A DNA stretch of 24,987 bases, taken from positions 1 to 24,987 of the IMG/VR virus record IMGVR_UViG_3300042691_006465; one strand, written 5' to 3'. The DNA comes from a virus. Positions 4,108 through 24,264 of this stretch are shown here, piece after piece; position 1 is the stretch's first letter; every line of letters starts with the position of its first letter. The position numbers and the translations under genes were made by a program. The notes under the pieces are model-generated. The model was not told the origin of the DNA, did not search any database, and worked only from the letters and a program-made list of their open reading frames with translations.

Positions 4108-4478
4108 AACCAAGGGTCACTTTCTGGTGCTGTTGCTTTTGCTTTGGATGCCTTAACTACTGCTGCAATTTCATTGGCAGTGATTTCAACGGATGTACGC
4201 TCAACGCCATTCTTGTCCTCGTACTTTACTATTTTGCATTTACCAATAACCAAGATTGCTTGACCTTTTTTTAGTGTGTCAGCTGCTGATTCAGCAACTC
4301 CACCAAACAAAACAATGTCGAAATAGTTAGTATCACCATCTGACCATGTCCCGTCTGGTGCTTTTTTTCTGTCGTTACATGCAATACGCAACTTGCAACG
4401 GCTAAGACCTGATGCCGTTACTTGAAAGTCTGGCTCAAAGACCAAATTTCCTTGCGCAGTTATTGTTGGTAGTGCCAT
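4104..4478 (-). CDS. ssb: Single-stranded DNA-binding protein
   Basis: 124 aa. OB-fold with LPTITAQGNLVFEPDFQVTA at the N-terminus, then SRCKLRIACNDR, NYFDIVLFGGVAESAADTLKKG and QAILVIGK strands, as in bacterial SSB. It ends in a short acidic/hydrophobic tip (ESDPWL) like the SSB C-tail that recruits partners. Strong Shine-Dalgarno AGGAG 7 nt upstream; TAATG overlap with WhiB. Works with the RusA and annealing proteins just upstream in the operon. Confidence 0.92.
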   Translation of the reverse strand: MALPTITAQGNLVFEPDFQVTASGLSRCKLRIACNDRKKAPDGTWSDGDTNYFDIVLFGGVAESAADTLKKGQAILVIGKCKIVKYEDKNGVERTSVEITANEIAAVVKASKAKATAPESDPWL

Positions 4479-4810
4479 TACATTGCTCCTGCTTCTCTTA
4501 ATCGCTCACGGTATGTGCGCGAATTCTTTGCTTGATTTGTTTCTTGTTGAATCGTGTGTTTGTATTCTTCGTCTATTCGTATTGGCGTGATGCCAAAGAA
4601 CCTGCGTAAAGCTACACGTTCCTTGTCTGATGTTCCTGCCCACCAACCCTCAACCTTTACCTTTAACGAATAATCAAGGCAAGCATCAAAGATTGGACAC
4701 CGTAGGCAAGTCTTTTTAAGTAAGTCCTCAACTTTGGGACTTATGTTATTGGTTGGAAAGAACAACTCTGGGTCTAACCCAATACAAGCTGCGCCGTCTG
4801 TGTTAAACAT
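4478..4810 (-). CDS. WhiB-family Fe-S regulator (first of two)
   Basis: 110 aa from the ATG at 4810 (Shine-Dalgarno GAGG 6 nt upstream; an upstream TTG is less likely). Cys at 9, 35, 38 and 44 give the C...CxxCx5C ligand set of a [4Fe-4S] cluster, followed by GWWAGTSDKER, the WhiB turn motif (usual GVWGG). WhiB proteins bind the primary sigma factor region 4 and change host or phage promoter choice. C-terminal ~35 residues are basic/helical. Overlaps rusA at its start. Confidence 0.88.
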   Translation of the reverse strand: MFNTDGAACIGLDPELFFPTNNISPKVEDLLKKTCLRCPIFDACLDYSLKVKVEGWWAGTSDKERVALRRFFGITPIRIDEEYKHTIQQETNQAKNSRTYRERLREAGAM

Positions 4811-5222
4811 CCTGCACCTCGCTTGCAATTATCTGGCAACCAATTCTGTCTGTGGCGTATTGCTTAGATGCGCTCACAGCTATTACTAAAGCATCGTCTG
4901 TGTAAAGACCGCCAGTTGTCAATCCATCAAAGGTTGAGCGAATCAACTTATCTAAATCAGGCTTAACGCTGGGCCACTTGCGATTGACGGTCTTAGGTCT
5001 AGGTAAATGAAACACAAGCGCAATCTCTACCGGGCTTGTTATTGTCCACTGCTCTGCATTGGGCCATTTACTAGCTCGATACTCTTGCGTTTGAGTTGCT
5101 ACGGCTTCACGCCAAGGCTTAACTTTCTTGCTTGACTCAACCATAACCACGCGACCATTCTTCACAAAGCCATTCTTAGAACCTTGCGGTGCTGGCTCGC
5201 CCTCAACAAAGTAACTAATCAC
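4803..5222 (-). CDS. rusA: RusA-type Holliday junction resolvase
   Basis: 139 aa from a GTG at 5222 that overlaps the previous stop (GTGA) and gives the classic beginning VISYFVEGEPAPQGSKNGF; a TTG 12 nt upstream is possible. Acidic residues in KPDLDKL (D89, D91), TFDGL (D99) and YTDD (D109, D110) correspond to the metal-binding aspartates of RusA. Resolves branched DNA before packaging. Neighbours SSB and annealing protein complete a recombination module. Confidence 0.88.
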   Translation of the reverse strand: MISYFVEGEPAPQGSKNGFVKNGRVVMVESSKKVKPWREAVATQTQEYRASKWPNAEQWTITSPVEIALVFHLPRPKTVNRKWPSVKPDLDKLIRSTFDGLTTGGLYTDDALVIAVSASKQYATDRIGCQIIASEVQDV

Positions 5223-6847: not shown

Positions 6848-7186
6848 CTAATTTGTGTAGGCAAAAACCCTTAGAAACCTGCGCTTTTCTAGTTTGTCCT
6901 TTGGAACCTTGCCAGACTTACTTAGTTTGTAACGCTCATCAGGTGTCATTCCACCCCACATACCCCATTTTTCATCTAGCCCGATCTCTAGGCAGAAGCC
7001 CACAACTGGGCATTCTTCGCATAGTCGTTTAGCTGTGGCGTATAGGTGCGGTTCATCATTCTCTGGAAAGCAAGTATCTGGGTGCGAATCTCTACAAGCT
7101 GCGGAGTACATCCATGAATCTGGAGCAGTACAGATCAGGCACATTCCTGAATCTATCCACGCTTCATGGTCGCAATCTTTGAGCAT
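6848..7186 (-). CDS. WhiB-family Fe-S regulator (second, with extra N-terminal Cys motif)
   Basis: 112 aa. C31, C56, C59, C65 form the WhiB ligand set (C...CxxCx5C), then GMWGGMTPDERYKL, the conserved turn and basic helix. AACRDSHPDTCFP is the standard WhiB opening. Unlike most WhiB proteins it has a preceding ~25-residue segment with C5, H7, C16 and C19, which could hold a second metal. It begins 8 nt after the loader-like gene and is followed by a promoter-bearing gap, so it is placed to act between replication and downstream early genes. Confidence 0.9.
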   Translation of the reverse strand: MLKDCDHEAWIDSGMCLICTAPDSWMYSAACRDSHPDTCFPENDEPHLYATAKRLCEECPVVGFCLEIGLDEKWGMWGGMTPDERYKLSKSGKVPKDKLEKRRFLRVFAYTN

Positions 7187-7193
7187 CCATCCA

Positions 7194-7535
7194 TTATGGT
7201 CGCTTGAGTCCTAGTTCCACCAATTTGGCTCGCACATCATCTGGCATTCCTTGCGATCTAGGACTTGACCCAATAGCTCGTACGTTATCTATTTCGTGTT
7301 CGCGTGATCTATGAGCAGTCCACATTGCGTTGAGGTGTGCTGGCATTACAGTTTCTGTTGCTGATTTGTAGTGCTTGCCAACTGCATCACGAGCAAACTC
7401 AAAGTCCATAGTTTCGCTTAGTGCTAATGACCAGCCTTCAACTTTTGCCCTAAACGCTGATTCGTCAGCTGCACCAAGTCGGGCATCTATCGCCATTGCA
7501 ACTGCTAACACTTTGCCTACATCTGCTTTGTTCAT
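7194..7535 (-). CDS. Possible replicative helicase loader/inhibitor (G39P-like)
   Basis: 113 aa. Helical N-terminal region (KADVGKVLAVAMAIDARLG), then WSLALSETMDFEFARDAVGKHY and the segment TVMPAHLNAMW. MPAHL followed by a flexible C-terminus is typical of small actinophage proteins next to a replisome organiser, similar in layout to G39P-type helicase loaders. It overlaps the initiator gene by ATGA, which matches an O/P-like initiator-loader pair. Assignment is by pattern and context. Confidence 0.55.
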   Translation of the reverse strand: MNKADVGKVLAVAMAIDARLGAADESAFRAKVEGWSLALSETMDFEFARDAVGKHYKSATETVMPAHLNAMWTAHRSREHEIDNVRAIGSSPRSQGMPDDVRAKLVELGLKRP

Positions 7536-8308
7536 TGTTCTAGTTCCTTTGTTTCGTTCTCTAGGTTCTTAAGCCAGTCCATTGTCTTTGTGAACTTGCT
7601 TTGCTTAGTGTTGCGTTGTGCTGCCAGTCGCAACTGATCGTATTGCTTGCGTAACTTACCGGGACTCATAATATTGCCACGCCAAAAGTTATCTGCTTGA
7701 CACCACTCGATAGCTTTAGTGATTTGTTCCCAACTGCGTTCGTCAATCCTGTTAAGTCGTTCCATGTCACTTAGCCATTTATCGGTAATCTCTGGCCTGC
7801 GTGAGCCGTTGTCTGCAATCAAGTCAGCTAGCAAATTGCAGGCATGAATAACCTCGTTGTCGTAGACACGAGTATTTAAGGATGGTTCTAAGGATGGTTC
7901 ATGGATGGTTAGGGTGAACCCTGCTTCACCCCGTTGTGTAGTGGGCTTCACCCCGTTATTGCGCTGTGCTTCACCCCGTTCTGCATCCTGCTTCACCCGG
8001 TGCTTAGTTGAGCCGTCACATTGTTTAGGGCAACGCACAAGAATTTCGTAACGGTTAGGTCTGCGATCACCACGAGTATCAGCATTGCCACCTTTATTAA
8101 CGTGGCACACAATCTCACCCATGTTGATTAGCTTCTGAATGCAAGTTTGAACTGATCGCTCACTGATGTTTGCGTATTTTGCAAGCGTTGTTATTGACGG
8201 CCACGCTCCACCATCGCCATCATGGTTTGCAATACCAAGCAGAACTAATTTGTCTGAGCCGCTAGCTTGTGAATGATGCAGACACGCTGCAATGGATTCG
8301 ATACTCAT
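7532..8308 (-). CDS. Replisome organiser (lambda O-like), with iterons in its own coding sequence
   Basis: 258 aa. N-terminal winged HTH (residues ~20-90; WPSITTLAKYANISERSVQ, then TCIQKLINMGEIV) of the phage replication-initiator kind; a low-complexity, iteron-encoded linker (~98-145); and a C-terminal helical domain with QADNFWRGNIMSPGKLRKQY, found in many replication proteins. It would bind the origin and recruit a loader (next gene) and host helicase. The start has no Shine-Dalgarno of its own but overlaps (ATGA) a nine-codon ORF with a strong one, implying coupled translation. Confidence 0.8.
   Translation of the reverse strand: MSIESIAACLHHSQASGSDKLVLLGIANHDGDGGAWPSITTLAKYANISERSVQTCIQKLINMGEIVCHVNKGGNADTRGDRRPNRYEILVRCPKQCDGSTKHRVKQDAERGEAQRNNGVKPTTQRGEAGFTLTIHEPSLEPSLNTRVYDNEVIHACNLLADLIADNGSRRPEITDKWLSDMERLNRIDERSWEQITKAIEWCQADNFWRGNIMSPGKLRKQYDQLRLAAQRNTKQSKFTKTMDWLKNLENETKELEQ
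7880..7910. repeat. Three GGATGGTT direct repeats beside the iterons
   Basis: GGATGGTT occurs at 7880-7887, 7892-7899 and 7903-7910, with 12- and 11-bp spacing (about one helical turn). One lies in a different reading frame from the other two, so they are not merely a coding repeat. They flank an A/T-rich spot (TATTTAAG at 7873-7880), as expected next to an origin. Confidence 0.5.
7923..8002. repeat. Four iterons; candidate replication origin inside the initiator gene
   Basis: GCTTCACCCCGTT at 7923-7935, 7945-7957 and 7968-7980 is identical, and a variant GCTTCACCCGGTG lies at 7990-8002. Spacing is 22, 23 and 22 bp (two helical turns), so all sites face one side of the DNA. The copies are read in different frames (HRVKQ, ERGEA, NGVK, QRGEA), showing selection on DNA not protein. 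The location in the linker region of the initiator matches the lambda O/ori arrangement. Confidence 0.7.
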
Positions 8309-8334
8309 AAAGCATCGCCGATAAGATGAGTCAT
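8305..8334 (-). CDS. Nine-codon leader ORF coupled to the initiator gene
   Basis: ATG at 8334 encodes MTHLIGDAL and stops at a TGA that overlaps the initiator ATG (ATGA). It has a near-ideal Shine-Dalgarno AAGGAG (8340-8345) 5 nt upstream, whereas the initiator start has none. Ribosomes terminating here could reinitiate on the initiator, so the leader probably sets its expression. The peptide itself shows no stalling motif I recognise. Confidence 0.5.
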   Translation of the reverse strand: MTHLIGDAL

Positions 8335-8338
8335 AATG

Positions 8339-8359
8339 ACTCCTTCCACATTAAGGAGT
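8339..8359 (-). promoter_or_regulatory. Hairpin that sequesters the leader-ORF Shine-Dalgarno
   Basis: On the minus strand ACTCCTT (8359-8353), a 7-nt loop, then AAGGAGT (8345-8339): a perfect 7-bp stem. The downstream arm is the Shine-Dalgarno of the nine-codon ORF, so folding would block translation of leader and, by coupling, the initiator. A temperature, RNA or protein switch is possible; no aptamer-like domain is recognised. Confidence 0.5.
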
Positions 8360-8368
8360 TGTTGAACA
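8353..8368 (-). promoter_or_regulatory. 16-bp element, copy 2 (candidate RHH operator)
   Basis: Minus-strand TGTTCAACAACTCCTT matches TGTTAGACAACTCCTT at 8899-8914 in 14 of 16 positions. The two copies lie upstream of the two transcription units on either side of the RHH regulator gene. This one overlaps both the 11-bp inverted repeat and the Shine-Dalgarno-blocking arm. Confidence 0.4.
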
Positions 8369-8398
8369 GGGTCATTCCGTATTGGTTTGACCCTGTTC
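8364..8398. repeat. 11-bp inverted repeat at a putative promoter (operator candidate)
   Basis: GAACAGGGTCA (8364-8374) and TGACCCTGTTC (8388-8398) form a perfect inverted repeat with a 13-nt loop. A -10-like TACAAT lies at 8406-8401 on the minus strand, putting the predicted start inside the repeat. Neither strand has a following T-tract, so a repressor site is more likely than a terminator; a leader hairpin is also possible. Confidence 0.45.
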
Positions 8399-8408
8399 CT
8401 ATTGTACT

Positions 8409-8714
8409 CTAAAGGTTTTCTTGGAACTCGACTTTAGACCATTTAAGGCGCAAGGCTTCTGCTACTGCTTGACGTTCAATCTCTGGCAGGTTAGCGATCT
8501 CGTCAAGGCTAACTTCTACCATTTCAGAACCGCACAGGAACTCTAGAACTGCAACTATTACTAGCTGATGTTCGTCAAACTCTGGCTCATCTATGTTGTC
8601 TATTACTTCCCAGACCTTAGCCCAATCAATCGGCGTAACTGCATCGTGATTCTGAAACAGTTTGTGGTCTGCCATCCAAGTTGTTTGCACCAACTGTTCT
8701 GATGGTGTTCTCAT
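8409..8714 (-). CDS. Acidic hypothetical protein downstream of RHH regulator
   Basis: 101 aa from the ATG at 8714, which has AGGAG 7 nt upstream and overlaps the RHH stop as ATGA; a longer in-frame reading begins upstream without signal. Strikingly acidic: about 21 Asp/Glu against 7 Lys/Arg. HQLVIVAVLEFLCGSEMVE and IERQAVAEALRLKWSKV are helical. Family not recognised. Translated with the RHH protein, so it may be its partner; a DNA-mimic role is speculative. Confidence 0.68.
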   Translation of the reverse strand: MRTPSEQLVQTTWMADHKLFQNHDAVTPIDWAKVWEVIDNIDEPEFDEHQLVIVAVLEFLCGSEMVEVSLDEIANLPEIERQAVAEALRLKWSKVEFQENL

Positions 8715-8866
8715 TGCTTTGCTCCTGTCATTAGCTCTATTGCTGATCTGATTACTTGACTTACATTGGCGTTGTGTTGATGCGCCCATTGCTTAACCGC
8801 AAGCATCTGCTCATTGTTAAGACGCAGGGCAATCATGTTCTCTTTGTTTTCTTTTTCGTCAGCCAT
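8711..8866 (-). CDS. Ribbon-helix-helix DNA-binding regulator
   Basis: 51 aa, found by hand translation. After a charged N-terminus, MIALRL (11-16) is the beta ribbon, NNEQMLAVKQWAHQH the first helix and NVSQVIRSAIELM the second, the CopG/Arc layout. Such dimers bind short operators. Promoter-like sequence and a 16-bp element lie upstream, with a second copy of the element before the initiator gene, which makes autoregulation and control of replication genes plausible. GGG-containing Shine-Dalgarno 6 nt from ATG. Confidence 0.72.
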   Translation of the reverse strand: MADEKENKENMIALRLNNEQMLAVKQWAHQHNANVSQVIRSAIELMTGAKQ

Positions 8867-8884
8867 TGCTAACCCTTTCTACTC

Positions 8885-8912
8885 TTTGTATGACAGTAAA
8901 GGAGTTGTCTAA
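8885..8912 (-). promoter_or_regulatory. Putative promoter of the RHH gene
   Basis: Minus-strand TTAGAC (8912-8907), 16-bp spacer, TACAAA (8890-8885); predicted start about 12 nt before the ATG at 8866. The -35 lies inside the 16-bp element, so a bound regulator would occlude RNA polymerase. Confidence 0.4.
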
Positions 8913-8914
8913 CA
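8899..8914 (-). promoter_or_regulatory. 16-bp element, copy 1 (candidate RHH operator)
   Basis: TGTTAGACAACTCCTT on the minus strand, 14/16 identical to 8353-8368. It covers the putative -35 of the RHH gene, the usual geometry of an autorepressor site. Confidence 0.4.
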
Positions 8915-8930
8915 TCCGCAAATAGGCAAA

Positions 8931-8970
8931 GTAAATGCCACCCGACAAAGCATAAGCGAGTGGCATCTAC
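8931..8970 (-). terminator. Stem-loop after the 73-aa gene; weak terminator candidate
   Basis: Arms GTAGATGCCAC and GTGGCATTTAC pair over 11 positions (one G-U), loop 18 nt, followed on the minus strand by TTTGCCTATTT. The T-tract is poor and the loop long, so readthrough is likely. A second 6-bp hairpin (TCTAGG-GATCG-CCTAGA, 8973-8989) overlaps the stop codon just before it. The promoter for the RHH unit begins immediately after. Confidence 0.4.
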
Positions 8971-8984
8971 GGTCTAGGGATCGC

Positions 8985-9206
8985 CTAGAGCTGCGCAAGT
9001 TTTCCTAACCTAGCACGAAGATGCGCCAAATACACAATGGCATCATCTAGTTCTTCCAGCGTTTCTAAAACTATCTGCTCGCCTGATTTGGTTTCAATGC
9101 TTTGTTCAGTACCCCGGCTGTATTGCTCATCACCTGTACCCATAATCCTAGAGCGCAAAGACTCAACGCATCGCGTAACTTGGTCAGCTAGTTCTTCACT
9201 TGTCAT
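8985..9206 (-). CDS. Hypothetical helical protein, MazG-like in layout
   Basis: 73 aa. IMGTGDEQYSRG, then EQIVLETLEELDDAIVYLAH and LRARLGKL: two helices with an acidic E-x-x-E/D pattern, reminiscent of small MazG-like phage proteins (nucleotide pyrophosphohydrolase fold), but too short to be sure of catalysis. Last gene before a double hairpin, so it probably closes the upstream transcription unit. Overlaps the 34-aa gene by 11 nt. Confidence 0.62.
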   Translation of the reverse strand: MTSEELADQVTRCVESLRSRIMGTGDEQYSRGTEQSIETKSGEQIVLETLEELDDAIVYLAHLRARLGKLAQL

Positions 9207-9300
9207 GGACTAACCTGAACTCACTGCATACGCGACACGTTTCATAATCGCCCTCTGTTGATTTAACGTATAGCCAATCGTGGCTACAAGATTTTGGCAT
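9196..9300 (-). CDS. Small zinc-finger-like protein (34 aa)
   Basis: Hand translation MPKSCSHDWLYVKSTEGDYE followed by TCRVCSEFRLVHDK. C5, H7, C22 and C25 can form one zinc site. Such C-x-H...CxxC mini proteins are common in actinophages. GGA lies 6 nt before the ATG. The first 17 nt overlap the HNH gene, the end overlaps the 73-aa gene by 11 nt. Confidence 0.52.
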   Translation of the reverse strand: MPKSCSHDWLYVKSTEGDYETCRVCSEFRLVHDK

Positions 9301-14855: not shown

Positions 14856-16082
14856 CTAGAATCCTAAATGTCCATCGTTGAGTAAACCAAATTCAAGGTC
14901 ATCAAGAACAAGGCTAGCATAATCAAGGGTTTGAAAGCCAAATGTAATACGGTGCGAGAATGGCGCAATGGTGTGAGCAATCTTAATAATACTTGCGTAT
15001 TGGTTTATCTGTGAGCCTACTTGATTAGGTGTGAATTTAATCTGGCAGACATCACCAATTTCCAAACCTAGAACGTCAATCTGATCCGCACTGCTCAGAG
15101 CTTCTAGTTGTACCGAAAGTGTTTCAAATCTGTACTCAGGATTCCTAAACTGATTCAGCAGATAGTTAGCCAGAGACTCAGCATCATCATCTGAGTTCAT
15201 TAACAAACCAGACTCGATTAGTGCCTGTTGCCCATAGTTACTTATGGAATCAGAGTCTGTTGCTATCGCAGTTCCACCAGTTGCTCTTTCAATCTGAATG
15301 TAGTTGTAAAGCAATTCAGAACCATAGATAACTTGCACTTCACTAAACTCAACACCTGAACCATCATCAGCAAAGATAACTTGACCTGCTGAAACTGGCG
15401 CGACAGTTCGATCCTTGAAAATTAAGTTGCCATCTTTACCAATGAAAATAGAACCGGGTTCTGTGCTGGTCACTAGCTGTAAATACTCTAGAGCGTTTGC
15501 GCCATCATCAACTACATCTGCCTGCAATAACTGTGAGCCTGTGTCTATGGCTCGTAAGTCAGTAGGCCAATCAACATCAGGGCGATCTAGAACAGCGTTG
15601 ATTCTTGCACCAGTTAATTCTGATGTAGCCGTGTGAGCAGACAGAGCGCGTTGTGCTAACAAGGTGAAACCATCCACGCAGTCGGCAGTGGTAACTGATA
15701 AACCTGATAGATCGTAGTTTAGATTCCAGTCATCTACTACACCATAGAAAACAGCAGATCCAGCAGTTTCGACTTTAATTGTTCTCTTAGGAATAATCTG
15801 ACCATAGAAAGGACTGCTTGTGTTTTGTGGATCGAATACTCGTGCATTATTGTTCAGCTCTATGGTGGCGTTGCCGGCTGTAAATCTTTCTAACTGACGT
15901 GACTTACCACGCGACACACTGACAGAACGCACATACTCAGACACGTCATAAAATAACGTGCCGCCCAAAGTGAATTCTGTATTGTCCAGAACGCCTTGCT
16001 CCGCGCTGTCAAGAATAAAGAAGTTGCCACCTAGACCGCTTAGATCAAAACCCAATTCAACTGTTGTTGCTGGCACTGACAT
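14856..16082 (-). CDS. Minor tail / tail hub protein
   Basis: 408 aa, directly downstream of the tape measure with no gap. The N-terminal ~110 residues (YVRSVSVSRGKSRQLERF, FYGVVDDWNL) are beta-rich, as in a distal-tail or baseplate hub module. The central part (DGANALEYLQLVTSTEPGSI, IFIGKDGNLIFKDR) and C-terminal part (IEIGDVCQIKF-type strand, SHRITFGFQTL) resemble hub proteins that combine Dit/Tal functions. Small phages often have one such protein at the tail tip. Confidence 0.72.
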   Translation of the reverse strand: MSVPATTVELGFDLSGLGGNFFILDSAEQGVLDNTEFTLGGTLFYDVSEYVRSVSVSRGKSRQLERFTAGNATIELNNNARVFDPQNTSSPFYGQIIPKRTIKVETAGSAVFYGVVDDWNLNYDLSGLSVTTADCVDGFTLLAQRALSAHTATSELTGARINAVLDRPDVDWPTDLRAIDTGSQLLQADVVDDGANALEYLQLVTSTEPGSIFIGKDGNLIFKDRTVAPVSAGQVIFADDGSGVEFSEVQVIYGSELLYNYIQIERATGGTAIATDSDSISNYGQQALIESGLLMNSDDDAESLANYLLNQFRNPEYRFETLSVQLEALSSADQIDVLGLEIGDVCQIKFTPNQVGSQINQYASIIKIAHTIAPFSHRITFGFQTLDYASLVLDDLEFGLLNDGHLGF

Positions 16083-20751: not shown

Positions 20752-21612
20752 CTACTTGCGTTCTGCTAATGCCCTACGGATTCCCTCACGCAGACTGATT
20801 TTAGGAACGAAATACTGATGCGATAAATGCTGTGTGCCTACTCGATACTGAACACCTACTGGCGCAGTCTCGATGTGGTTAAACACAGGCTTGTAACCTG
20901 CTTCCTCGCAGACCATTTCAGCAAGGTCATTAAAGCTAGTGGCTTGTCCTGAACATAGATTAAACGTGCCTGTGTAACCGGTTTGAACATGCCAAAGCAC
21001 AGCCTGAACTATGTCCTCAATGTGGATGAAGTCGCGCACCTGCTCACCATCGCCCCAAATGTCAAAGGGGTCTGCCTTTCCTAGAGCGCGGTCAATGAAA
21101 CTAGGAAACGGATAATCAGCATCTTGGTCTGAGCCGTAACCTGAGAACGGTCTAAAGATAAACACGTTTGAGTCAGTTACAAACTGCGCCAAGTATTCCC
21201 CGGTAAGTTTTGCCCAGCCGTAAGTCAGGTCAGGATTCCTAACCGCATCAAGGTTCAAATCCCATTCATCTAGACGGTGACGGCGGTGTGTGGTTTGTAG
21301 GTCTATTGGGTAAGCAGCAGAGCTAGAGAAGTAGACCACGTTCTTAGGCTTAGTGCTTTGCACCCAGTTAAAGAACTCTGCATCTATTGACAGGTCAGTT
21401 GCCACAGATAATGGCTCACCCTCGATAGTTGCGCGACCACCAACAATGGCTGCTAAGTGAATCACTAGATCAAACTGTTCTGTATTGCTCTTGAAGAAAT
21501 CCCTGCAATCATGGCCGTCTTTTAGGTCAATGCCTGTTATGTCGCTATCTGGCAAAGCCTTAACAAAGTTGCGACCAACAAAACCCTTATGCCCAGTAAT
21601 AAGGATCTTCAT
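20752..21612 (-). CDS. NAD-dependent sugar epimerase/reductase (SDR, GDP-fucose-synthase-like)
   Basis: 286 aa from the ATG at 21612 (TAATG overlap with the preceding glycosyltransferase). Gly motif G7-x2-G10-x2-G13 near the N-terminus, SSSAAYP with S97-S99, and catalytic Y131-x3-K135, then FRPFSGYG, an extended-SDR arrangement. Modifies an NDP-sugar (for example reduction/epimerisation to a deoxyhexose) that the adjacent transferases could use. The exact sugar cannot be read from sequence. Confidence 0.85.
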   Translation of the reverse strand: MKILITGHKGFVGRNFVKALPDSDITGIDLKDGHDCRDFFKSNTEQFDLVIHLAAIVGGRATIEGEPLSVATDLSIDAEFFNWVQSTKPKNVVYFSSSAAYPIDLQTTHRRHRLDEWDLNLDAVRNPDLTYGWAKLTGEYLAQFVTDSNVFIFRPFSGYGSDQDADYPFPSFIDRALGKADPFDIWGDGEQVRDFIHIEDIVQAVLWHVQTGYTGTFNLCSGQATSFNDLAEMVCEEAGYKPVFNHIETAPVGVQYRVGTQHLSHQYFVPKISLREGIRRALAERK

Positions 21613-22286
21613 TACCAAGCCTTTACGTTCTCAACGTCATTGCTGAATTCTGTGGCTAGGTATTCAGCAAAGATAGCCTGATCGCCGTTGTGCATTTCAA
21701 CTGTGTTTACAGCTGCGTATCTATCGTCATGGACTGCCTTGCCGTTTGTGTAGTGCATGTGTTCAATAATTACCTCTGGCAAGTAGTTCACGTTCTCTAA
21801 AGCGTTACCCATCGCAAGCCAATAGTTATCTAGGAACAAGTGCTTTAAGGCTGGCGGTGACATAAAGCCAGTAGCCCTAATGATCTTGCTAGACATGACT
21901 ACGGCAGTAGGCAAGTTCTCGCCTTGCAGTAAATCGTTGCCGTAAGCAATGCCCGGCTCTGTGCCAATAGCTTCTGCAAGTTTCGTATCCCAGCCACCTG
22001 TGCGCGGTAAGTGATCATCACCCATAAAACAGATGTAATCGTAGTCAGGCGCAAACCATAAAGCCCAGTGGTTAAGTGTCCCGTTCATTCCCATACGGTC
22101 AGCGATACAAACCTTGACGTTATCTAGCCCAGCAGTTTCTGCCATAAGTCCGTTATAGGTTTTAACATCATCTGCATCTATTGCAAAGATGACCTCTGTA
22201 AAGTCAGCCGTTGCGTTGATCGCTTCAAACAATCTAATTGCGTTATCGTTGCGCCCTCTTGTAGGAATGATTGTAAGCATTCTCAT
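21612..22286 (-). CDS. Glycosyltransferase, GT-A/GT2-like
   Basis: 224 aa from the ATG at 22286, which overlaps the previous stop (ATGA). MLTIIPTRGRNDNAIRLFEA opens like GT2 enzymes, and FMGDDHLPRTGGW (D90-D91) is a DxD-like metal/nucleotide site. HMHYTNGK near 178-187 could be catalytic. Transfers a sugar from an NDP donor. Family clear at fold level; acceptor unknown. Confidence 0.8.
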   Translation of the reverse strand: MRMLTIIPTRGRNDNAIRLFEAINATADFTEVIFAIDADDVKTYNGLMAETAGLDNVKVCIADRMGMNGTLNHWALWFAPDYDYICFMGDDHLPRTGGWDTKLAEAIGTEPGIAYGNDLLQGENLPTAVVMSSKIIRATGFMSPPALKHLFLDNYWLAMGNALENVNYLPEVIIEHMHYTNGKAVHDDRYAAVNTVEMHNGDQAIFAEYLATEFSNDVENVKAW

Positions 22287-23086
22287 TGGTTTACCAGTTT
22301 CCAAAATGTATCGCCTGCCTTATCTACCATGTGGCGCAGTGCATCTGCATCGTGCCAATCTTCAACGCTAGTTATTCCTACGTTTTCGTTAGTGTGAATC
22401 CTGCAACCTGAAAGCACCGCTTCCATAACTGCTCTGCACTCTGACTCAAAGGCTAAGGGTAAATGCACAAACCATTCGCACCTTGCCATAGCATCTAGGA
22501 CATGTTCACGGGGTACATCCGTAAGAGCTTTGAACTCATAGCCTGCCTGAGCTGCCCAAGCGTGAGCGCGTAGCTGACCTTTTAAGGGATGATTCCTAGC
22601 AGCCCACAATGCAAATGGTTGCTTGTCCATGTGGTCATAGCACTTGCTGGTATCGAAATAGCTTAGAACCTGCGCTGTCTTGCGTGGCTTTGACCAAGAT
22701 AACTCTTTGCGCATGTGTGCCGGGGTATGGGTTACGAATAATCGAGAGCCACGAATCAGAGCGTTAAGCCCTGCGCGTGGGGTTTGTAAGTGATGCACAA
22801 ATACGAACGGGTCATACTCGCTCAACCTATTCAACTGCTGATCTGTGAACGCATCTGTTCCTGTGACAATGACTGAATCGAATTGGTGTATGTCATGTGT
22901 ATCGAATGTGTATGGCGTAACAATCTCGATCTCAAAGCCCAGAGGTGCTTGCATGCGGTATTCGTAGTCTGACATTTCTGCCCCACCTGCAAACTGCCCC
23001 GTGAATAGTCCTGTGGGACTCACAGAGCCACCGAGAGCCACGTTAGGCGCGTTCTCTATGTGATGTGTATACCAGCCGATTTTCAT
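22283..23086 (-). CDS. Glycosyltransferase, GT-B-like
   Basis: 267 aa from the ATG at 23086 (MKIGWYTHHIENAPNVALGG), 2 nt after the previous stop; the longer in-frame reading overlaps that gene without signals. C-terminal E214-x7-E222 (FESECRAVMEAVLSGCRI) is the GT-B donor-binding motif. Shorter than the usual 350+ aa, so the N-terminal domain is reduced. Related in form to its neighbour at 23089-24264. Confidence 0.75.
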   Translation of the reverse strand: MKIGWYTHHIENAPNVALGGSVSPTGLFTGQFAGGAEMSDYEYRMQAPLGFEIEIVTPYTFDTHDIHQFDSVIVTGTDAFTDQQLNRLSEYDPFVFVHHLQTPRAGLNALIRGSRLFVTHTPAHMRKELSWSKPRKTAQVLSYFDTSKCYDHMDKQPFALWAARNHPLKGQLRAHAWAAQAGYEFKALTDVPREHVLDAMARCEWFVHLPLAFESECRAVMEAVLSGCRIHTNENVGITSVEDWHDADALRHMVDKAGDTFWKLVNQ

Positions 23087-23088
23087 GC

Positions 23089-24264
23089 TTAGAGTCGCTC
23101 GTAGGCTTTTGTTTCTAAAACCGTAAGTACGGGTTTCCAATGCTCCTCAAAGACGGTATCCGCGTTATACGCCTTAGCAAACTCTTGTGCCTTTTCTGAC
23201 CTGCCACGACCACGCTGATAAGCCTGCTCTAGGGCATCAACAATTGCAGGAACGCTTGGCATGTGGAACCAAGAGGACTGCGGTGCATCCCAAAGCGGTT
23301 GCCCGTCAATTAGCCAGCCGTCACCTAGTAGCTCGGTTGAAGCTGCAAAGTCGCTGATGATTACTGGTGTGCCACAGGCTTGTGCTTCCACAGTAGGAAT
23401 ACCAAAGCCCTCGCCGTAAGAGGTTGCAAGCAAAACATCCATAGCCGTATAGATCGTGGCTAGAGTCTGCTGGTCTATACCATTGCGATAAGTGTAAGGA
23501 TCAACAAACTTAAACTTTTCTTCTGGCACTCCACAGGATTGAAGCAACTGCAATAGTCTGATTCCGCCCAATGCGCCCATCTGATCTGTGTGCAGATACA
23601 GAACAACGTCATCGTGCTTCTGGGCAAACATAGAGAACGCAAGAATGTTCTCGCCAAATGCTTTGCGATTAGGGCTTACGCCTTTATTGGCTGCGTTCAT
23701 GCCAATAACGAACTTGTCCTCGCCTACGCCAATGTATTCTCTGCCAGTAGTTCCCTTGTGGCGTTTCATTGGCTTAAAGACTGGCTCGATACCGTGTGGC
23801 GCATAAAGGGACTCAATGCCTACGTTCTCAATCATTGACTGACCGTACTGGCTCATAGCGATAGGGGTAACTGCATCACGCGCAAGCCACTTAGTAACTT
23901 CTGGCGGTACTGGTAAATGATCAACTGGAACCCAGCTAGCCACGTTCCAATCTAGCCAGCGATCACCCTTAAATACCCACACGTCATACAGCGTAAAAAG
24001 AATGTGACCTTGCTTAGGGTGGCGCGTTGTCCAATCGTGCATGTGTGCTGGGACTACATCGTTTGAATACAAGTCTGCGCCACGTTGATAAACGGGCATA
24101 CCGTTCCAGTCTGTGTTGCTTCCCTCTAGACCGTAGTTGTTGAAGATCGCAACATCGTGACCAAGTGCTTTGAGTCGCTGTGTTACTTGTGCTGTTTGAG
24201 TTCCATAGCCAGTATTCGCCCACGGCGCGTTACTGTTCCAGCCAATTGCTAATGGTTTTGACAC
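23089..24264 (-). CDS. Glycosyltransferase, GT4-like (GT-B fold)
   Basis: 391 aa, GTG start with GGA 7 nt upstream. The N-terminus GWNSNAPWANTGYGTQTAQV and C-terminal YGEGFGIPTVEAQACGTP, with E285-x7-E293, are typical group-1 transferases. First gene after the capsid terminator and starts the sugar cassette. The usual structural order has capsid followed by connectors, so this is an accessory insertion. Likely substrate: a virion protein or a host-surface polymer. Confidence 0.88.
   Translation of the reverse strand: MSKPLAIGWNSNAPWANTGYGTQTAQVTQRLKALGHDVAIFNNYGLEGSNTDWNGMPVYQRGADLYSNDVVPAHMHDWTTRHPKQGHILFTLYDVWVFKGDRWLDWNVASWVPVDHLPVPPEVTKWLARDAVTPIAMSQYGQSMIENVGIESLYAPHGIEPVFKPMKRHKGTTGREYIGVGEDKFVIGMNAANKGVSPNRKAFGENILAFSMFAQKHDDVVLYLHTDQMGALGGIRLLQLLQSCGVPEEKFKFVDPYTYRNGIDQQTLATIYTAMDVLLATSYGEGFGIPTVEAQACGTPVIISDFAASTELLGDGWLIDGQPLWDAPQSSWFHMPSVPAIVDALEQAYQRGRGRSEKAQEFAKAYNADTVFEEHWKPVLTVLETKAYERL

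Follow-up and report, generated by a model that had tools for sequence, protein, structure and literature searches.

Origins of the kind considered here are already known from phage lambda (O and ori), from the plasmids pSK41 and pPR9, and from the Vibrio cholerae phage satellite PLE (RepA and ori). In lambda, the origin is situated in coding sequence, between the N-terminal DNA-binding domain and the C-terminal partner-binding domain, and has several iterons beside an AT-rich opening region (PMC7466680, PMC6022878). The iterons are 18-bp hyphenated inverted repeats, i.e. dyads (PMC6022878). In phage P27, synonymous changes to the iterons abolish plasmid replication (PMC7466680, PMC6022878). 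The initiators of pSK41 and pPR9 have a winged-helix N-terminal domain, origin boxes in the center of rep, a dispensable linker and a C-terminal domain that is retained by host group (PMC5703833). In pPR9 a segment of about 500 bp, comprising the N-domain and the origin, was exchanged; the new domain belongs to PF13730 and a mini-replicon replicates (PMC5703833). The passages of PMC8263062 used here describe module swapping in PLE, with replication by cognate pairs only, and report no residue-level pattern for RepA and ori. PLE differs from the phages described below in having an intergenic origin and two known types rather than dozens.

The window, that is, the whole stretch of 24,987 bp analyzed here, is a metagenomic contig deposited as an IMG/VR virus record. 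The host of the source phage is probably an actinobacterium, because the window carries two WhiB genes. These WhiB-family genes (6848-7186 and 4478-4828, minus strand) belong to the early region, where genes for Sak (single-strand annealing), RusA and SSB are close by. Elsewhere on the minus strand there is a DNA methyltransferase gene (N6_N4_Mtase, 701-1780) with a weak ParB-like N-terminal match and, beside the structural genes, a sugar gene block (20752-24264) that encodes an NAD-dependent epimerase, a group 1 glycosyltransferase and two proteins with no Pfam match.

The window resembles lambda O/ori-lambda and the Stx phage origins in the in-gene placement and in having iterons beside a probable opening region; of the dyad symmetry of lambda iterons, the window has one clear instance. 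It differs from lambda in the repeat sequence, in the direct half-site array closed by one dyad, in a constant AACCATCC triplet that takes the place of a simple AT tract, and in the DnaD-like C-terminal part of the protein. The first-pass annotation had called the repeats unlike lambda iterons; this holds for their sequence only. Lambda iterons are dyads as well (PMC6022878), and most relatives of the window have full dyads. With pPR9, which is compared by its description in a review only, the window shares a PF13730 (HTH_36) N-terminal domain. Unlike the window, pSK41 and pPR9 are Firmicutes (staphylococcal) plasmids, and pSK41 has boxes with A+T tracts and an N-domain of the RepA_N family, not HTH_36; RepA_N (PF06970), by which the pSK41-type class is defined, was absent from the initiator of the window in the Pfam search. 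The PICI rep-ori differs from the window in that its origin is downstream of rep, it has two iteron sets and its replication module consists of a primase homologue with rep.

Initiator gene and repeat array of the window

The features of the locus are as follows.

7532-8308, minus strand: replication initiator gene, 258 aa, O-like, with an HTH_36 winged helix, a linker and a DnaD-like C-terminal part (Pfam, PHROG, AlphaFold2 model)
8120-8161, minus strand: recognition helix, residues 50-63 (ERSVQTCIQKLINM); model helix H50-63 with pLDDT 93-97, top mutual-information columns
7990-8002, minus strand: iteron half-site 1, variant CACCGGGTGAAGC, two mismatches to AACGGGGTGAAGC
7968-7980, minus strand: iteron half-site 2, AACGGGGTGAAGC, exact copy
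7945-7957, minus strand: iteron half-site 3, AACGGGGTGAAGC, exact copy
7923-7935, minus strand: iteron half-site 4, AACGGGGTGAAGC, exact copy
7912-7931, no strand assigned: terminal dyad of half-site 4 (GGGTGAAGCA) and an inverted half-site (GGGTTCACCC), its center 11 bp from the first AACC copy
7880-7910, minus strand: three copies of AACCATCC, the constant module and putative DNA-opening element (11-12 bp steps, frames and codon choice in relatives, local instability)
7871-7975, minus strand: linker, residues 112-146, predicted to be disordered (pLDDT below 50), coding for most of the array
7538-7858, minus strand: C-terminal helical part, residues 151-257, with PHROG DnaD-like matches; common to loci L008-L020

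The initiator has an HTH_36 domain (PF13730) at residues 16-64 (E=2.1e-11, 43.9 bits against a cut-off of 25) and matches PHROG 8540 (2.5e-34) and 391 (5.3e-32), both annotated as "replication initiation O-like", over most of its length. The C-terminal half matches the PHROG DnaD-like helicase loader (1.3e-19) and replisome organizer (3.4e-19) families, and there is also a weak Pfam match to DnaD_N. In the AlphaFold2 model the winged helix is confident, with pLDDT 94-97 in the core, and the C-terminal part, which probably recruits a helicase or a loader, is helical. A sequence search of solved structures with the initiator gave nothing useful. A fold search with the full-length model found weak winged-helix and DnaD/Rep matches only, among them the DnaD and Rep structures 9a5c, 4pql, 5kbj and 4pt7, and none was below E=0.001. 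The 113-aa protein encoded downstream has no Pfam family, and its PHROG matches are all of unknown function. No lambda P gene was recognized among the replication genes scanned.

The array lies about 300 bp inside the initiator gene, between the DNA-binding and partner-binding domains of the coding sequence, and the repeats encode most of the disordered stretch 112-146. The 13-mer GCTTCACCCCGTT is exact at 7923-7935, 7945-7957 and 7968-7980, and a copy with two mismatches is at 7990-8002. The steps between copies are 22, 23 and 22 bp, in agreement with the 22-23 bp reported in the first-pass annotation, and the 24,987 bp of the window hold no further close copies. The inverted half-site that closes the array had been overlooked there. 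The window array thus has four direct half-sites and one clear dyad, whereas most relatives have full dyads; three of the four copies are in direct orientation and lack a well-matched partner arm. In 100 dinucleotide shuffles the number of 13-mer copies had a mean of 0.5 and was never four. The copies are read alternately in two frames, giving the peptides RGEA and GVK or RVK. When synonymous codons were shuffled with the protein held fixed, none of 1000 shuffles gave three exact 13-mers, 11 gave two, and 3 gave four copies at two mismatches or fewer. The earlier view that the repetition is kept at the DNA level is borne out by these frames and shuffles.

The adjoining block of three repeats at 11-12 bp, also described previously, was found as GGATGGTT at 7880, 7892 and 7903 (steps of 12 and 11 bp), and a single further copy, on the opposite strand, lies far off at 15668. 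The AACCATCC copies occupy two reading frames, encoding T-I and E-P-S. This easily melted region is directly beside the iterons, with 40% GC compared to 60% in the array, and for instability positions 7873-7912 rank at the 95th percentile of the window.

Repeats and layout in relatives

Scans of viral and genome contigs yielded 87 distinct sequences including the window, and later nine more. The named isolates that were also read are the Arthrobacter phages Decurro, Arielagos, Galaxy and KellEzio, Curtobacterium phage Root, Vibrio phage K67 and Sphingopyxis phage VSN-002. Close homologues were few in an order-wide genome search, with 30 of 396 genomes matched, mostly weakly. A DNA search with the array alone found Pseudomonas phages at 73% identity, and a collection of E. 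coli genomes gave no DNA-level match to it.

Near relatives (93-97% identical) keep the repeats: L004 and L005, at 97 and 93% identity, have the same iterons as the window. L006 (65% identity) has the repeat GGGGTGACATC and L007 (57%) has GGGGTGTCGTC, while other relatives have GGTGACG, GGTGTCC, GGTCGCA, GCGGTG, GGATGC and so on. The first-pass annotation had held that relatives keeping the amino acids but not the repeats would speak against an origin. Distant relatives have neither the same amino acids nor the same repeat, yet the geometry of their arrays is the same, and the differing repeat matches their own recognition helix. Such a shared geometry with a helix-matched repeat is better support for an origin than simple conservation of the repeats would be.

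Among 57 non-redundant phages, the phage's own 6-nt core occurs 4.0 times in its own linker, compared to 0.25 times for the cores of other phages. Spacings of own cores on the same strand peak at 19, 22-24 and 42 bp, and the copies are in more than one frame in 45 of 54 phages. Full dyads rather than seven-mers were counted outside the gene, because seven-mer counts there are too noisy in GC-rich phages; the initiator genes (41.5 kb) contain 148 own-core dyads, and the 443 kb around them contain 58.

The position of the AACC copies relative to the iterons is fixed. A dyad with at least 7 of 8 pairs is centered exactly 11 bp before AACC or AACT in 48 of the 87 genes, and each other offset from 5 to 21 occurs in 0 or 1 genes; offsets of 22-24 are the reflection of the next AACC copy. 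When the last palindrome was located without reference to AACC, 45 of 58 genes had the next AACC at a distance of 11 bp. No recognizable array or AACC block was found in L082, and L068 and L074 have partial ones.

The AACC block is under constraint at the DNA level. Its copies in relatives are mostly 11 or 12 bp apart and occupy more than one frame in 32 of the 34 phages that have two or more. There are 1.55 copies per gene, compared to 0.66 under synonymous shuffling. Relative to the rest of the same genes, the block is enriched in the codons TTA for Leu (26% against 4%), CCA for Pro (40 against 15%) and TCC for Ser (49 against 18%), and its GC content falls to 52% within genes of 63% GC. Across 57 relatives no other stretch of the linker region is as unstable: the block is +0.20 kcal/mol per step over the gene mean, and elsewhere the value is near zero. 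The natural reading of these properties is that the block is probably a DNA-opening element made of phased repeats.

Pseudomonas phage JBD68 (L322:1475-3694), a distant relative, has an HTH_36 gene annotated as "hypothetical protein" in which AACGGGGTGCAA-type repeats are spaced 22-23 bp apart and the array is closed by a GGGTGCAACGGTTGCACCC dyad; the gene also has copies of AACCACC. The gene is directly before one for an IstB/DnaC-like AAA ATPase, which is followed by a protein with a DnaB-helicase N-terminal domain. From this arrangement, the array is probably the origin of JBD68. Vibrio K67 and Sphingopyxis VSN-002 also have arrays in the same style. In K67 (L279, gene 1444-2373), GGGTGTCAGAGTGACG-type repeats are followed by TCCTAACAACT copies about 12 bp apart, not by AACCATCC. 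Judging by the K67 copies, the constant element may differ by host group.

The loci L008-L020 have the C-terminal part of the window initiator, a different N-terminal part with a weak HTH_36 match, and other linker repeats. Two pairs of helix and repeat are present: SIATVDRAK with CCTAGCCCCAAAAATGATGC and PNTMDRAK with CCTATACCCACCAGTGGGGATA. Therefore, the N-terminal part and the repeats differ together while the C-terminal part is retained. This pattern is like that reported for pPR9 (PMC5703833) and, in the passages of PMC8263062 used here, for PLE RepA/ori.

The recognition helix and the iteron sequence

Mutual information and prediction were computed for 61 phages below 85% identity, and Mantel tests for 59 non-redundant phages. 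In a blind scan of the 99 columns of the domain, residues 55, 52, 49, 51 and 54 were the top five in mutual information with the half-site core, and all are in or beside the recognition helix. In leave-one-out prediction of the 6 bases of the half-site, the error was 0.97 when six helix residues were used and 1.67 when the remainder of the domain was used; permutation gave 2.25, the lowest of 500 permutations being 1.82. The sequences are related, and the control in the Mantel tests removes only the signal shared with the rest of the domain. In partial Mantel tests on the 59 phages, the helix correlated with the repeat when the rest of the domain was held constant (r=0.53, p=0.0002), whereas the rest of the domain did not when the helix was held constant (r=0.03, p=0.35). 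Of the pairs below 60% identity in the remainder of the domain, 85% of those with identical helix residues have exactly the same core, as do 1% of those whose helix residues show four or more differences.

Lys55 accompanies T at the central base (TGTC), and Arg55 accompanies A or G there. In the window Thr55 occurs with GTGAA. Identical helices were predicted rightly, the informative case being Root (L278), in which RTVQRS pointed to GTGACG and nine copies are present. For helices without an identical match, prediction failed at all six new loci (0/6: L296, L303, L311, L313, L315, L319); in L303 the predicted core is present twice, yet it is not the repeat. L311 and L315, with the helix RAVQQA (Gln55), have the same GGTGAAGC repeat as the window (RSVQTC), in the form of full dyads, i.e. 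one iteron with a different recognition helix. L007 has mixed half-sites, GTGTCG with GTGGCG, and L059 has GTGGCG with GTGACG, in arrays or dyads; both were possibly caught in the middle of a change of specificity. In the literature searched, mostly outside subscription journals, there was no report of a helix-iteron pattern and no description of a constant AACC element at a fixed distance.

Probable replication origin and alternative explanations

All of the computational evidence favors the earlier proposal of a candidate origin in the linker of an O-like initiator. Positions 7871-8002 are very probably the replication origin of the phage, situated where its own initiator gene codes for the linker. 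We conclude that this putative origin consists of variable, self-specific iterons beside a constant element at which the DNA would open. The suggested GC-skew check, run on the whole window, gave no switch at the site and no origin signal.

We infer the binding of the iterons, the opening of the strands and the use of the site as an origin from its layout and from the covariation. Judging by the latter, the winged helix of the initiator would bind GGTGAAG half-sites. Half-sites two helical turns apart, together with the inverted closing half-site, would align dimers or tetramers along the same side of the double helix. The resulting strain could open the adjoining AACCATCC block, given its helical phasing and local weakness, after which the host helicase and primase would be brought in by the DnaD-like C-terminal part. 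The repeats and the recognition helix are in one gene; therefore, a change of specificity must alter both. The N-terminal part and the array could be replaced together as a single cassette, with the C-terminal part left in place.

The array might instead be mainly an operator, with the initiator binding its own coding sequence and limiting transcription of the early operon rather than starting replication. The covariation indicates that the domain reads the sites and is silent on the consequence of binding, and winged-helix regulators are among the closest folds. However, the array is well inside the gene, the unstable, phased AACC block abuts it at a fixed 11 bp, as an origin would have it, and both the O-like and DnaD-like families and the loader and helicase neighbors in JBD68 point to replication. 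Autoregulation in place of replication is thus improbable, although the two roles could coexist. Scans for promoters and terminators were at chance level.

The full palindromes in most relatives, and the one in the window, would also be compatible with RNA hairpins in the early mRNA, acting as an attenuator or a processing signal. Such hairpins are hard to reconcile with the unpaired half-sites of the window or with arm sequences that follow a DNA-binding helix, and no terminator-like site is present in 7000-9300; we regard them as extremely unlikely. Just as little can be said for the view that selection acted at the protein level on a repetitive, low-complexity linker peptide and that the DNA repetition is its by-product, in spite of the predicted disorder and the repeated RGEA and EPS peptides. 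This is already contradicted by the tests of frame and covariation: the copies are in different frames, synonymous shuffles fail to reproduce the repeats, the AACC block of GC-rich phages has an excess of the otherwise rare codons TTA, CCA and TCC, and the repeat sequence tracks the recognition helix. A replication origin remains by far the preferred explanation.

Origins within initiator genes are known, but studies of how a binding protein and its site change together, when both are encoded in one short stretch, have covered a handful of pairs. The present set gives 59 non-redundant cognate pairs directly from sequence; the specificity residues are located, and the control with the rest of the domain is without effect. 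The pairs form a natural data set for winged-helix recognition, make it possible to call origins from a single gene in phages that lack annotation, and point to a constant element that is possibly a DNA-opening module. The residue-to-base pattern may be new, as may the two-part architecture that is fixed across at least two bacterial phyla.

A more general proposal is advanced tentatively, as one that may well fail. The HTH_36 phage initiators would encode their own recognition, in that the helix at about residues 49-56 sets the iteron by a readable residue-to-base rule (K55 with TGTC; R55 with TGAC or G at that base) and the copies of an array change in concert. All such origins would share a constant AACC(A/G)TCC element, with steps of 11-12 bp and the first copy 11 bp from the center of the last dyad, that is read by a conserved partner or at a single-strand step. 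If this is true, actinobacterial and proteobacterial phages would have in common a class of origins defined by the AACC(A/G)TCC element.
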